Source: Thermodesulfobium narugense DSM 14796 (lineage in GTDB: Bacteria > Thermodesulfobiota > Thermodesulfobiia > Thermodesulfobiales > Thermodesulfobiaceae). From it: a stretch of 64,000 nucleotides of DNA. Made by a program: the position numbers and the translations under genes. Where the stretch lies: assembly GCF_000212395.1 (NCBI RefSeq), contig NC_015499.1:1747421-1811420 (forward strand), in the 5' to 3' direction. Positions 14,207 through 17,348 of the stretch are shown here, piece after piece; the stretch's first letter is position 1; the number at the start of each line of letters is the position of its first letter. The notes under the pieces were generated by a model. That model did not search any database. It was not told where the DNA came from and saw only the letters and a list, made by a program, of their open reading frames with translations.

Positions 14207-14536
14207 TTAAATATTCTTTATAGTTTTATATAGTTCCTCGTGACCCTTGGCCTGATCGTTCAAAGTCTTTTTAGCATCGCTTACAAGGTTTAATACAGAT
14301 GGTAAATTTATTCTATAAAACATCTTCTGCCCATCTTTTCTTGAATCTATAATGCCTTGTTTTTTTAAGATCCTCAGGTGCTGAGATAAGTTTGATTGCT
14401 CAACACCTATCTCGTTTAAAAGCTCACATACACACCTTTCCTTTTCGCTTAACATCATCAATATTTGAATCCTTAATGGGTGTGCAAGAGTTTTAAAAAT
14501 TTCAGAAATCAATTGGTATACCAAAACTTTTTTCAT
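14207..14536 (-). CDS. ArsR/SmtB-family metal-responsive repressor
   Basis: A 109-residue winged-helix repressor. The helix-turn-helix lies around residues 38-65 (VEQSNLSQHLRILKKQGII), preceded by the CVC motif (Cys35, Cys37) in the alpha-3 helix, a known thiol metal or metalloid site in this family. The beta-wing contains RKDGQKMFYRI. It probably leaves DNA when metal binds. It is divergent from the MgtE_N-CBS/Nramp operon, whose promoter lies about 110 bases from its start, so it may control that operon or itself; this is inference. A good ribosome binding site (GGAGG) precedes the ATG. Confidence 0.88.
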   Translation of the reverse strand: MKKVLVYQLISEIFKTLAHPLRIQILMMLSEKERCVCELLNEIGVEQSNLSQHLRILKKQGIIDSRKDGQKMFYRINLPSVLNLVSDAKKTLNDQAKGHEELYKTIKNI

Positions 14537-14641: not shown

Positions 14642-14670
14642 TTTACATAGCAATTCAAATCTGCTAAACT
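14642..14670 (+). promoter_or_regulatory. Promoter of the MgtE_N-CBS/Nramp operon
   Basis: TTTACA (14642-14647), a 17-base spacer ending in an extended -10 TGC, then TAAACT (14665-14670). Predicted start near 14677, giving a leader of about 115 bases before the GTG at 14792. Confidence 0.6.
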
Positions 14671-14676
14671 TTCATT

Positions 14677-14791
14677 CGAATATACTTTCTCATGGAGGTG
14701 ATTTGCATGGATGATATACCCGATTTATGCCTCATAAGATTTTCTTACGACAAGCGCTTTTGCAAATCACCAAAAAGTGAGGAGGTATATC
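14677..14791 (+). promoter_or_regulatory. Candidate structured 5' leader (possible metal-sensing RNA)
   Basis: Two perfect inverted repeats interlock. GGTGATTTGC (14697-14706) can pair with GCAAATCACC (14762-14771). GATATACC (14713-14720) can pair with GGTATATC (14784-14791). The first arm contains part of a ribosome binding site (GGAGGTGAT) for a small leader frame; the last arm overlaps the ribosome binding site GGAGG of the downstream gene. Because the second helix links the loop of the first to sequence outside it, the fold would be a pseudoknot, or two competing states. A small hairpin (TTATG-CCT-CATAA, 14725-14737) lies within the loop. It matches no riboswitch class I recognise. Confidence 0.5.
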
Positions 14792-14829
14792 GTGTCTTTT
14801 ACAAGCGCTATAACAGAGTTTTACCTTAG
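14707..14829 (+). CDS. Possible leader peptide (40 aa) overlapping the MgtE_N gene
   Basis: The ATG follows an almost ideal ribosome binding site (TGGAGGTGAT, 4 bases upstream). The frame starts MDDIPDLCLIRFSY and ends at a TAG inside the next gene, in another frame. Composition is basic and unlike a folded domain, so a leader peptide whose translation opens or closes the downstream start is a reasonable guess. It could equally be a by-product of a non-coding RNA element. Confidence 0.35.
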   Translation: MDDIPDLCLIRFSYDKRFCKSPKSEEVYRVFYKRYNRVLP

Positions 14830-16087
14830 CCAGGAACTAAACAAACCAATTATTGACTATGAAAACAAAAAGGTTGCCCACCTGAGAGACATTGCTGTTT
14901 GTTGGGATAAGAAAGTTCCAATTGGCAGAGGTATCAAGTTTTTAAAGGACTCTAACAAGCTAATAAATATAAACCACATAAAGGAATGGACGAAGGATGC
15001 AATAGTTCTCGCTACAAGCCTTGAAAAGGCAGCTGACATCGTAGCAAGAGATGAAGACATATATATAGTAAAGTGGTTTCTTGACAAACAACTTATAGAC
15101 CTCAAAGGCAAAAAGTTAGTCAGAGTAAACGACATAAAAATATCCTTTTATTCCAAAGACTTAGAAAAAAAATTAATACTTCTTGCTATAGATGTGGGTT
15201 TTTCTGGCATTCTTAGAAGACTTGGCATTAAATTTTTAGAAAGCAAAATTCAACCTCAGTTAATAAGTTGGAATTATCTTGCCCCAATAAAAAAGAGAAC
15301 TTCAAACTTACAACTGGCAACCGAATTTGAGGGTTTAAAAGACCTTCATCCAGCTGATATTGCTGATATTATAGAAGAGCTCAGCCAACCAGACAGAGAG
15401 AAGATAATAGAGAGCCTTGATATAGAAAGCGCTGCAGAGGTATTGGCAGAAGCAGATATTGAAACTCAAGTAAACGTAATTGACTCTCTTGATGCAGAAA
15501 GAGCTGCTGATATACTAGAAGAAATGCCATCTGATGACGCTGCTGATATCTTAAGCGAGTTAGATGAAGAGAAGTCTCAAGAAATATTAGAACATATGGA
15601 TCCAGAAGAAGCAAATGAAGTAATAGAATTAATGAACTATGAAGACGAAGACGTAGGATCGTTGATGACAAAAGATTATATAACTCTTACCGGAGATGAA
15701 ACTTCAGAAGAAGCTCTGAATAAAATCAAAAAAATGGCTGAAGAAGTAGAAACTATTTACGTTTCATATGTAGTTGACAGTGAAGAGAAATTAATAGGAG
15801 TAGTATCTTTAAGGGAGTTGTTAATTGCCAAACCTGATGAAAAAATAAAAGATATCATGCAAAAAAATGTTATAAGTCTAAATCATTTTGACCATCACGA
15901 CAAAGCACTTGAAATGTTTGCCAAATATAATCTCTTTACAATGCCTGTAATAGATAACGAAAACAGGCTTCTTGGAATAATTACAGTTGACGACGTTTTA
16001 AGACTTCTTATGCCAGACAGAAGTGATACCGACACCTTCTCAAGATTTGATTCATTGAAGAAATTCTTAAGAGAAGGTGGTGAATAG
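14792..16087 (+). CDS. MgtE N-domain plus CBS-pair regulatory protein
   Basis: A soluble 431-residue protein. Residues 1-160 look like a PRC-barrel-type region (YLSQELNKPIIDYENKK, repeated as LDKQLIDLKGKKLVRV). Then come the helical MgtE_N superhelix (about 175-290, repeats such as ERAADILEEM) and a CBS pair (about 295-420, LMTKDYITL and IMQKNVISL). In MgtE channels these two domains sense cytosolic magnesium and gate the pore; here the pore domain is absent. The transporter gene directly follows and overlaps, so this protein probably senses metal, or a nucleotide, and regulates that carrier. The GTG at 14792 is chosen because GAGGAGG lies 6 bases upstream. Confidence 0.85.
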   Translation: MSFTSAITEFYLSQELNKPIIDYENKKVAHLRDIAVCWDKKVPIGRGIKFLKDSNKLININHIKEWTKDAIVLATSLEKAADIVARDEDIYIVKWFLDKQLIDLKGKKLVRVNDIKISFYSKDLEKKLILLAIDVGFSGILRRLGIKFLESKIQPQLISWNYLAPIKKRTSNLQLATEFEGLKDLHPADIADIIEELSQPDREKIIESLDIESAAEVLAEADIETQVNVIDSLDAERAADILEEMPSDDAADILSELDEEKSQEILEHMDPEEANEVIELMNYEDEDVGSLMTKDYITLTGDETSEEALNKIKKMAEEVETIYVSYVVDSEEKLIGVVSLRELLIAKPDEKIKDIMQKNVISLNHFDHHDKALEMFAKYNLFTMPVIDNENRLLGIITVDDVLRLLMPDRSDTDTFSRFDSLKKFLREGGE

Positions 16088-17348
16088 TATAGCTATGGAG
16101 AACAAGTTGTCATTATTTAGAAGAATACTTCTATTTCTAACCATAATGGGCCCAGGAATAATTACTGCAAACGTGGACAACGATGCAGGCGGAATTACTA
16201 CCTACTCTGTAACAGGCGCAACAACGGGCTATAAGCTTCTATGGGTATTGATCCCAATGACCATTGCGCTCATAGTTGTACAAGAAATGGCTGCAAGAAT
16301 GGGAGCAGTAACGAGAAAAGGCCTAGCCGATTTGATTAGAGAAAATTTTGGCGTAAAAATGACTTTTCTAATACTCTTAGGAATACTTGTAGCTGACTTT
16401 GGAAATACCATATCTGAATTCGCAGGCATTGCCGCAAGTATGGAAATCTTTAACATAACAAAATATATCTCAGTTCCTATCTGCGCATTATTTGTCTGGT
16501 GGACAGTTTTAAAGGGTTCATATAAGTTTGTAGAAAGAATATTTTTATTTGCATGTCTTGTTTATCTTTGCTATATACCATCTGCCTTTATGGCTAACCC
16601 TCCGTGGGGAGAAGTTGCAAAGAATATAGTTATACCCCATATAGAGTTTAGTCCTTCTTTTTTATCTGTACTTATTGGTTTTATAGGTACCACCATTACC
16701 CCATGGATGCAATTTTATATCCAGTCTTCTACGGTAGAAAAGGGATTAACAGAAAAAGAATATAAGTATTTAAGACTAGACGTAATAACTGGAAATATAA
16801 TGACAAACGTAATAGCGCTTTTCATTGTGGTTAGCTGCGCGGCAACTCTTTTTGTTCATAACGTCAATATTTCAGACGCTAAAGATGCAGCACTTGCACT
16901 TAAACCCTTTGCGGGAAATCTTGCATCCACTTTATTTGCAATAGGGCTATTTAATGCTTCTATCTTTTCAGCCTGTATACTTCCTCTTGCAACAGCATAT
17001 TATGTATGTGAGGCATTGGGATTTAATGCAGGACTTGACTTTACATGGAAAGAGGCACCAGTTTTTTATTCACTAACAACTTTTTTAATCATGGTGGGCG
17101 CAATTGCAATATTGATGCCCAACGCACCCCTAGTGCCCATAATGTTTTGGTCACAGGTTATAAACGGCGTAATATTGCCATTTGTATTGCTATATATGCT
17201 AAAGATCATTAATAACAAAGATATAATGGGCGAATATACAAATTCAAAAACATTTAACATAATAGCATGGCTCACTACTATCATCCTAATAATCTTAACT
17301 TTACTTATGGTAATTACTTCTATCTTTCCAAACTTACTTCCATCTTAA
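16077..17348 (+). CDS. Nramp-family divalent metal transporter
   Basis: About 11 transmembrane helices. Helix 1 reads GPGIITANVDNDAGGITTYS, where canonical MntH proteins have DPGN; helix 6 reads TTITPWMQFYIQSS, where they have MPHN. The metal-site aspartate and one methionine may remain, but the surroundings differ from proven manganese/iron carriers, so the ion is uncertain and magnesium is a real possibility given the MgtE_N partner. The frame overlaps the upstream gene by about 11 bases; the start could be GTG at 16077 or 16080, or ATG at 16095, none with ideal spacing. A terminator follows. Confidence 0.85.
   Translation: MVNSIAMENKLSLFRRILLFLTIMGPGIITANVDNDAGGITTYSVTGATTGYKLLWVLIPMTIALIVVQEMAARMGAVTRKGLADLIRENFGVKMTFLILLGILVADFGNTISEFAGIAASMEIFNITKYISVPICALFVWWTVLKGSYKFVERIFLFACLVYLCYIPSAFMANPPWGEVAKNIVIPHIEFSPSFLSVLIGFIGTTITPWMQFYIQSSTVEKGLTEKEYKYLRLDVITGNIMTNVIALFIVVSCAATLFVHNVNISDAKDAALALKPFAGNLASTLFAIGLFNASIFSACILPLATAYYVCEALGFNAGLDFTWKEAPVFYSLTTFLIMVGAIAILMPNAPLVPIMFWSQVINGVILPFVLLYMLKIINNKDIMGEYTNSKTFNIIAWLTTIILIILTLLMVITSIFPNLLPS

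Follow-up and report, generated by a model that had tools for sequence, protein, structure and literature searches.

Genes and features of the locus

The window analysed here is a 64,000-nucleotide stretch of DNA from Thermodesulfobium narugense DSM 14796. It contains a metal-transport operon composed of a gene for a soluble MgtE_N-CBS protein and a gene for an Nramp-related transporter, preceded by a leader with a short open reading frame and two inverted repeats. In window coordinates, the locus comprises:

14642–14670, forward strand: candidate promoter, TTTACA and TAAACT spaced by 17 nucleotides, with TG before the −10 element; identified by a consensus scan alone
14681–14693, forward strand: 5′ arm of helix A, predicted anti-SD for the MgtE_N gene; identified by folding, pairs kept in four genomes
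14695–14703, forward strand: ribosome binding site (SD) of the leader, GGAGGTGAT, a 9-nucleotide match to the anti-SD complement with a spacing of 8; invariant in four genomes
14697–14707, forward strand: 5′ arm of helix B, predicted to mask the leader SD, formed by the 10-bp repeat plus one A-U pair; invariant in four genomes
14707–14829, forward strand: leader open reading frame, MDDIPDLCLIRFSYDKRFCKSPKSEEVYRVFYKRYNRVLP, 40 residues, of the M[DE]..P class; frame kept through a 3-nucleotide indel
14707–14730, forward strand: acidic/proline start MDDIPDLC, candidate ribosome-destabilising motif; fits a statistically defined class
14713–14720, forward strand: 5′ arm of the 8-bp pair, which could pair with the MgtE_N SD region as an alternative; identified from sequence, invariant
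14761–14771, forward strand: 3′ arm of helix B; identified from sequence, folding and conservation
14777–14789, forward strand: 3′ arm of helix A, holding the MgtE_N SD; identified from folding and conservation
14792–16087, forward strand: soluble MgtE_N-CBS protein gene, 431 residues (PF03448, PF00571), starting with GTG at 14792 and preceded by the SD GAGGAGG at 14779–14785
16077–17348, forward strand: Nramp-related transporter gene of the NRMT (NrmT) type (PF01566), start probably ATG 16095

The 40-codon leader frame starts with ATG at 14707–14709 and overlaps the beginning of the MgtE_N gene in a different reading frame. This frame and both ribosome binding sites lie where the first-pass annotation had placed them. 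The promoter region is conserved in an alignment of four genomes of the genus. Since the promoter-like element ends at 14670, transcription would start at the outer arm of the leader hairpin, with a predicted mRNA 5′ end at about 14677–14679. A gene for an ArsR/SmtB-family metalloregulator (14207–14536, reverse strand) is divergent from the leader, and through its product this intergenic region may also be controlled at the level of transcription.

Transporter and magnesium import in the genus

The closest relative of the transporter with a solved structure is the Mg2+ transporter EleNRMT (7qia), matched at 405 bits, versus about 100 bits for MntH. Helix 1 of the transporter keeps the aspartate-containing motif DAGG, helix 6 reads GTTITPW versus GTTIAPW, and the protein has no binding-site methionine. 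Judged by these sequence features, which were taken from the description of the NRMT binding site (PMC8806188), the transporter belongs with the Nramp-related Mg2+ transporters (NRMT) and probably carries Mg2+. The NrmT of A. capsulatum behaves as a Mn2+ transporter, so that not all NrmT proteins are Mg2+ transporters (PMC4072509), and for this reason the ion of the window transporter is given here as the probable one. The search for CorA and for the MgtE membrane domain returned no match in three genomes of the genus, and that for MgtA returned nothing above the cut-off in three genomes. The organism seems to have no recognisable Mg2+ importer apart from the NRMT-type transporter.

Operons of NrmT and an MgtE-like fragment often lie behind an M-box (ykoK, RF00380) riboswitch (Shin et al. 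2014, PMC4072509), and share the operon type and the presumed signal with the window locus. The window locus differs from them in lacking the riboswitch, as M-box searches gave no match in the window, in the leader at E values up to 5, or in four genomes of the genus. A search of the window and the leader against 4227 Rfam families gave no cis-regulatory match, yybP-ykoY included, in agreement with the first-pass annotation, which had set the leader apart from both elements.

Predicted hairpin over both ribosome binding sites

The two inverted repeats of the leader are perfectly complementary, as claimed before: GGTGATTTGC (14697–14706) pairs with GCAAATCACC (14762–14771) over 10 bp, and GATATACC (14713–14720) pairs with GGTATATC (14784–14791) over 8 bp. 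Among 3000 dinucleotide shuffles of 14677–14829, a perfect 10-bp inverted repeat arises in 0.57%, and a 10-bp repeat with an interlocked 8-bp repeat in none; these figures are post hoc, the features having been picked after sight, and the repeats are still well above chance.

Folding from the predicted 5′ end places the 10-bp repeat in the inner half (helix B) of a longer hairpin. The outer helix A is formed by 13 bp (14681–14693 with 14777–14789), is extended by pairing of 14677–14679 with 14790–14792, and encloses helix B. The 161-nucleotide stretch folds at −38.4 kcal/mol with a z-score of −3.1, and one of 200 shuffles is equally good. The z-score is only −0.6 once the 5′ arm, which had been missed before, is omitted from the fold. 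The predicted hairpin covers both ribosome binding sites, helix A that of the MgtE_N gene and helix B that of the leader. The fold bears out the claim that both translation starts are masked, and it supports a translational switch in front of the metal-transport operon.

The repeats had been proposed to interlock as a pseudoknot. We reject the pseudoknot as the main structure because the 8-bp pair uses the bases of the 3′ arm of helix A. It competes with, and is mutually exclusive with, the stronger and conserved 13-bp helix, and its probability in the free RNA is about zero at both 37 and 55 °C in the equilibrium model. The 8-bp pair forms in the model only when the 3′ arm of helix B is made unavailable.

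A hairpin that is simply closed, or an RNA thermometer, acting without peptide sensing, would account for the masking of both ribosome binding sites in this thermophilic genus. However, the modelled hairpin of the free RNA remains closed at 55 °C, and the explanation does not extend to the acidic leaders in bacteria whose leaders have other structures. We consider it very unlikely.

Conservation of the leader within the genus

The locus is also present in three further Thermodesulfobium genomes, which gives four sequences from two lineages. Each of the 24 pairs that make up helices A and B forms in every one of these sequences. Helix A contains one compensatory double change from C-G to U-A and two G-U wobble changes among the four genomes. 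The helix covariation score of this alignment is not above the shuffle control, as 78 of 500 shuffles score as high, and the covariation is suggestive only, because the sequences represent two lineages. In helix B and in the 8-bp pair, the columns are invariant or nearly so across the four genomes, and the invariant 8-bp pair therefore gives no covariation information.

Alignment columns 25–61, which span the leader SD to codon 8 (MDDIPDLC), contain one synonymous difference in a proline codon, and MDDIPD is invariant in the four genomes. Among the codons of the MgtE_N gene that are identical in amino acid, 40% differ synonymously between the two lineages. Codons 1–8 of the leader are conserved and its middle is variable, with a length of 40 versus 48 residues within the genus. 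The loop between the hairpin arms is variable and contains a 3-nucleotide indel that keeps the frame. Within the genus, conservation in the leader falls on the SD with MDDIPDLC and on the hairpin arms.

Since conservation rests on these elements and the loop is free to vary, a metal-binding riboswitch is not needed to explain the leader. In such a riboswitch, the pseudoknot formed by the repeats would bind Mg2+, Mn2+ or Fe2+ and hide the start sites, and the leader frame would be incidental. The two perfect repeats beyond chance and the metal transporter downstream fit this explanation, but the leader matches no Rfam family, lacks a conserved junction or loop of the aptamer type, and carries an indel in its variable loop. 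Furthermore, the pseudoknot is unpopulated in the model, where a conserved helix of greater strength competes with it, and the amino acids of the leader fit a peptide class seen in unrelated leaders. We regard a metal-binding riboswitch as highly improbable. The first-pass annotation had offered either a metal riboswitch or a leader-peptide device; the conservation of peptide and arms makes the former unnecessary, and membership in the peptide class favours the latter.

Alternatively, the leader may encode a functional small protein, such as a partner of the transporter, with the hairpin serving simple translational coupling. A strong SD, a conserved start, and the overlap of leader and gene, as in coupled genes, are compatible with this. 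Nevertheless, besides the stretch fixed by RNA pairing, conservation in the genus covers about eight N-terminal residues. The rest of the peptide diverges, in length as well, and the leader tails are unrelated across the peptide class. A functional small protein is quite unlikely in our view.

Acidic leader peptides upstream of magnesium transporter genes

Leaders were collected from two kinds of loci. At NrmT loci, the short frame whose SD was strongest within the 420 nucleotides upstream of the gene was picked blind to its amino acids. At M-box loci with any transporter, the frame between the M-box and the gene was picked likewise. No SD-led short frame was found at 21 of 80 NrmT loci and at 21 of 61 M-box loci. 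The leaders start with Met-Asp or Met-Glu in 84 of 97 cases, and in 46 of 59 after dereplication, which leaves related genomes partly non-independent. The same start occurs in 52 of 779 controls, and in 8 of the 99 controls with an SD of at least 7 nucleotides; the controls were picked by the same procedure from other parts of the loci and from the window, and are largely coding DNA. The enrichment in leaders over the two control sets corresponds to Fisher p values of 2e-36 and 9e-20.

The dereplicated profile contains Asp or Glu at position 2, Asp, Gly or Pro at position 4, Pro or Ser at position 5, and Pro or Asp at position 7. All four Asp/Glu codons are used at codon 2 (GAT 32, GAC 19, GAA 14, GAG 3), as are all four proline codons (CCT 32, CCC 16, CCG 9, CCA 3), which argues for selection on the amino acids and not on the RNA. 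Examples from Bacillota, upstream of related operons, are MDSGPYPDY, MDAGPANLC, MEGGPLSRRS, MEDDPEDK, MDTDPDGRC and MDDYDTDNC.

The leader peptide might also sense tRNA supply instead of Mg2+, that is, charged tRNA-Pro, as in Salmonella mgtP (PMC8092293), or the tRNA for cysteine. The MgtP precedent and the frequency of proline, present within residues 2–8 of 66% of the dereplicated leaders, speak for such a sensor. However, Asp or Glu at position 2 is more constant (78%), many members have acidic runs and no early proline (MDDYDTD, MESDDDY), and 39% of control leaders contain proline anyway. We consider tRNA sensing unlikely.

Members of the class lie upstream of NrmT, MgtE, CorA and MgtA genes, and most of them follow an M-box riboswitch. 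The M-box loci of CorA, MgtE and MgtA genes (L149–L218) include the leaders MDDPEADL, MDDPDADL, MDGDPSPY, MESEEGDYY and MEPESSNG. No M-box was found within the locus DNA examined at several leader loci, among them L055, L058, L087, L090 and L140/142/145. Candidates outside Bacillota are MDPDSVRY from a Kapabacteria MAG (L078) and possibly MDDGPSPG (L012). Among 348 genomes searched in the family to which G061 (Anaerocolumna) belongs, only 3 carry the operon.

The window leader fits the class, as it has its own SD, starts with MDDIPD, and lies upstream of a putative Mg2+ transporter. It appears to be a lone-standing case, ahead of a transporter that seems to be the sole Mg2+ importer recognisable in the organism. 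The occurrence of similar acidic leaders before Mg transporter genes in many bacteria suggests a widespread, largely undescribed sensing of low Mg2+ by ribosomes. We lean slightly towards the view that M[DE]..P leaders are Mg2+ sensors based on the ribosome and form a large class that is mostly undescribed, controlling Mg2+ transporter genes of several families in Bacillota, Thermodesulfobiota and probably other phyla. In this view they are often stacked behind the M-box, adding a second Mg2+ sensor to one mRNA, and in some lineages stand alone.

Comparison with known leader peptides

In the literature found, Mg2+ sensing by ribosome drop-off on acidic leaders is described for enterobacterial mgtL and mgtQ. 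The EPDP motif of MgtL causes Mg2+-dependent ribosome drop-off at low Mg2+ (PMC11282234). MgtL, located upstream of mgtA in E. coli and Salmonella, resembles the window leader in being a short open reading frame with an acidic and proline-containing start before a Mg2+ importer. However, it acts via Rho-dependent transcription termination, whereas the window hairpin is predicted to mask a translation start. It also belongs to another phylum and transporter family, and is unrelated in sequence outside the motif. MgtQ, from the mgtC-mgtB operon of Salmonella, is the closest in mechanism. Ribosomes are destabilised by its Asp2 and Glu5, and the abortive translation frees the ribosome binding site of mgtB from an inhibitory stem-loop (PMC8092293). 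Like the window leader, MgtQ, with its Asp2, Pro4 and Glu5, is a short open reading frame, and its stem-loop over a downstream ribosome binding site resembles the hairpin predicted in the window. MgtQ has 8 codons and is intergenic within its operon, whereas the window leader has 40 codons, lies at the 5′ end, and overlaps its target gene.

In relatives, the acidic leader sits between the M-box and the gene, and the two are therefore separate devices. Behind the mycobacterial M-box lies a conserved short open reading frame, uORF2/Rv1805A, which has a conserved N-terminus and an invariant proline, and to which its authors assigned no function (PMC12810186). It differs from the class in being described as mycobacteria-specific and in having its proline at position 7, and we liken the two by description. 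uORF2 could be another member of the acidic leader class, and the class suggests a possible role for it. A literature search, thin on subscription papers, returned no acidic leader peptides behind the M-box of Bacillota or before NrmT operons, which is weak evidence of novelty.

Proposed mechanism of the switch

We think it fairly likely that the leader is an MgtL/MgtQ-like, Mg2+-responsive leader-peptide switch for the NRMT-type importer operon. This proposal builds on the predicted hairpin, which is conserved and shows limited covariation, on the leader frame and its class membership, and on the operon content. In the resting RNA, helix A would join the mRNA 5′ end to the MgtE_N-CBS SD, and helix B would pair the leader SD with codons 19–22 of the leader itself, so that both start sites would be closed. 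By analogy with MgtL and MgtQ, MDDIPDLC may destabilise ribosomes, which at low cytoplasmic Mg2+ would drop off at its acidic/proline portion MDDIPD. Repeated loading and abortion at the leader start would hold the 5′ arms open and free the MgtE_N SD (ON), and ribosomes would not traverse the MgtE_N start region. With sufficient Mg2+, ribosomes would move off the start, the hairpin would re-close behind them, and finishing ribosomes would run across and beyond the MgtE_N start codon (OFF). The same analogy suggests both the abortion of ribosomes at the window leader and its dependence on Mg2+.

Leader translation is coupled to hairpin opening in the model only, and the opening is incomplete. 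At 55 °C, occupation of the leader start reduces the modelled pairing of helix A from 1.0 to 0.2, with only 0.26 of the MgtE_N SD unpaired, and a ribosome in mid-leader restores the pairing to 1.0. At 37 °C, 0.75 of the outer helix persists in the model with a ribosome on the leader start. The modelled hairpin stays shut with a ribosome parked at codons 5–6. Opening at the leader start and re-closing in mid-leader favour the ON state at low Mg2+.

Wiring of leaders in relatives

Some related leaders have a three-segment wiring, in which the leader tail duplicates the SD region of the gene and an anti-SD lies between this copy and the SD. With this wiring, translation of the full leader would close the SD, and early abortion would leave it open (ON). 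The SD copy is longer than shuffles give at loci L100 (13 nucleotides), L102 (8 nucleotides) and L110 (10 nucleotides), and L086 contains a 5-nucleotide word beyond shuffles. The same wiring is visible by eye in L108 and L078. In L100–L106 and L110, a stretch of 8–13 bases is identical between the leader tail and the gene SD region, and its complement lies in between. In the Kapabacteria MAG (L078, 4891–5001), the tail ATCACGCAGGGAAA of the leader MDPDSVRYIFSNKHITQGN, the anti-SD TTTTCCCTCCGTGAT and the SD GGAGGGAAAATG together resemble a textbook attenuator, here in a genome that does not belong to Bacillota.

The three-segment wiring is not significant in most of the loci tested, nor in the leaders of the window genus. 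The three-segment attenuator was rejected as a universal wiring, as it exceeds shuffles in few loci only. The window leader is wired otherwise, with its anti-SD at the predicted mRNA 5′ end, a feature that also distinguishes it from MgtQ. Because the window leader has no clear three-segment wiring, the sign of the switch is the weakest step of the proposed mechanism, and we rate ON at low Mg2+ as an even call.

If the class works like mgtL and mgtQ, it would represent a mechanism general among bacteria that shares its leaders with the best-known Mg2+ riboswitch. Substitution of the leader Asp by Ala or Asn would then abolish induction at low Mg2+, a prediction testable in standard Bacillota hosts.

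The M-box is also located directly before ABC permease genes (PF00528) at loci L149, L159, L175 and L178, the last with two such stretches. The permease loci L149 and L159 carry the leaders MDADPGPQ and MDADPEPQ, respectively. The permeases at these four loci are candidates for uncharacterised ABC-type Mg2+ importers.
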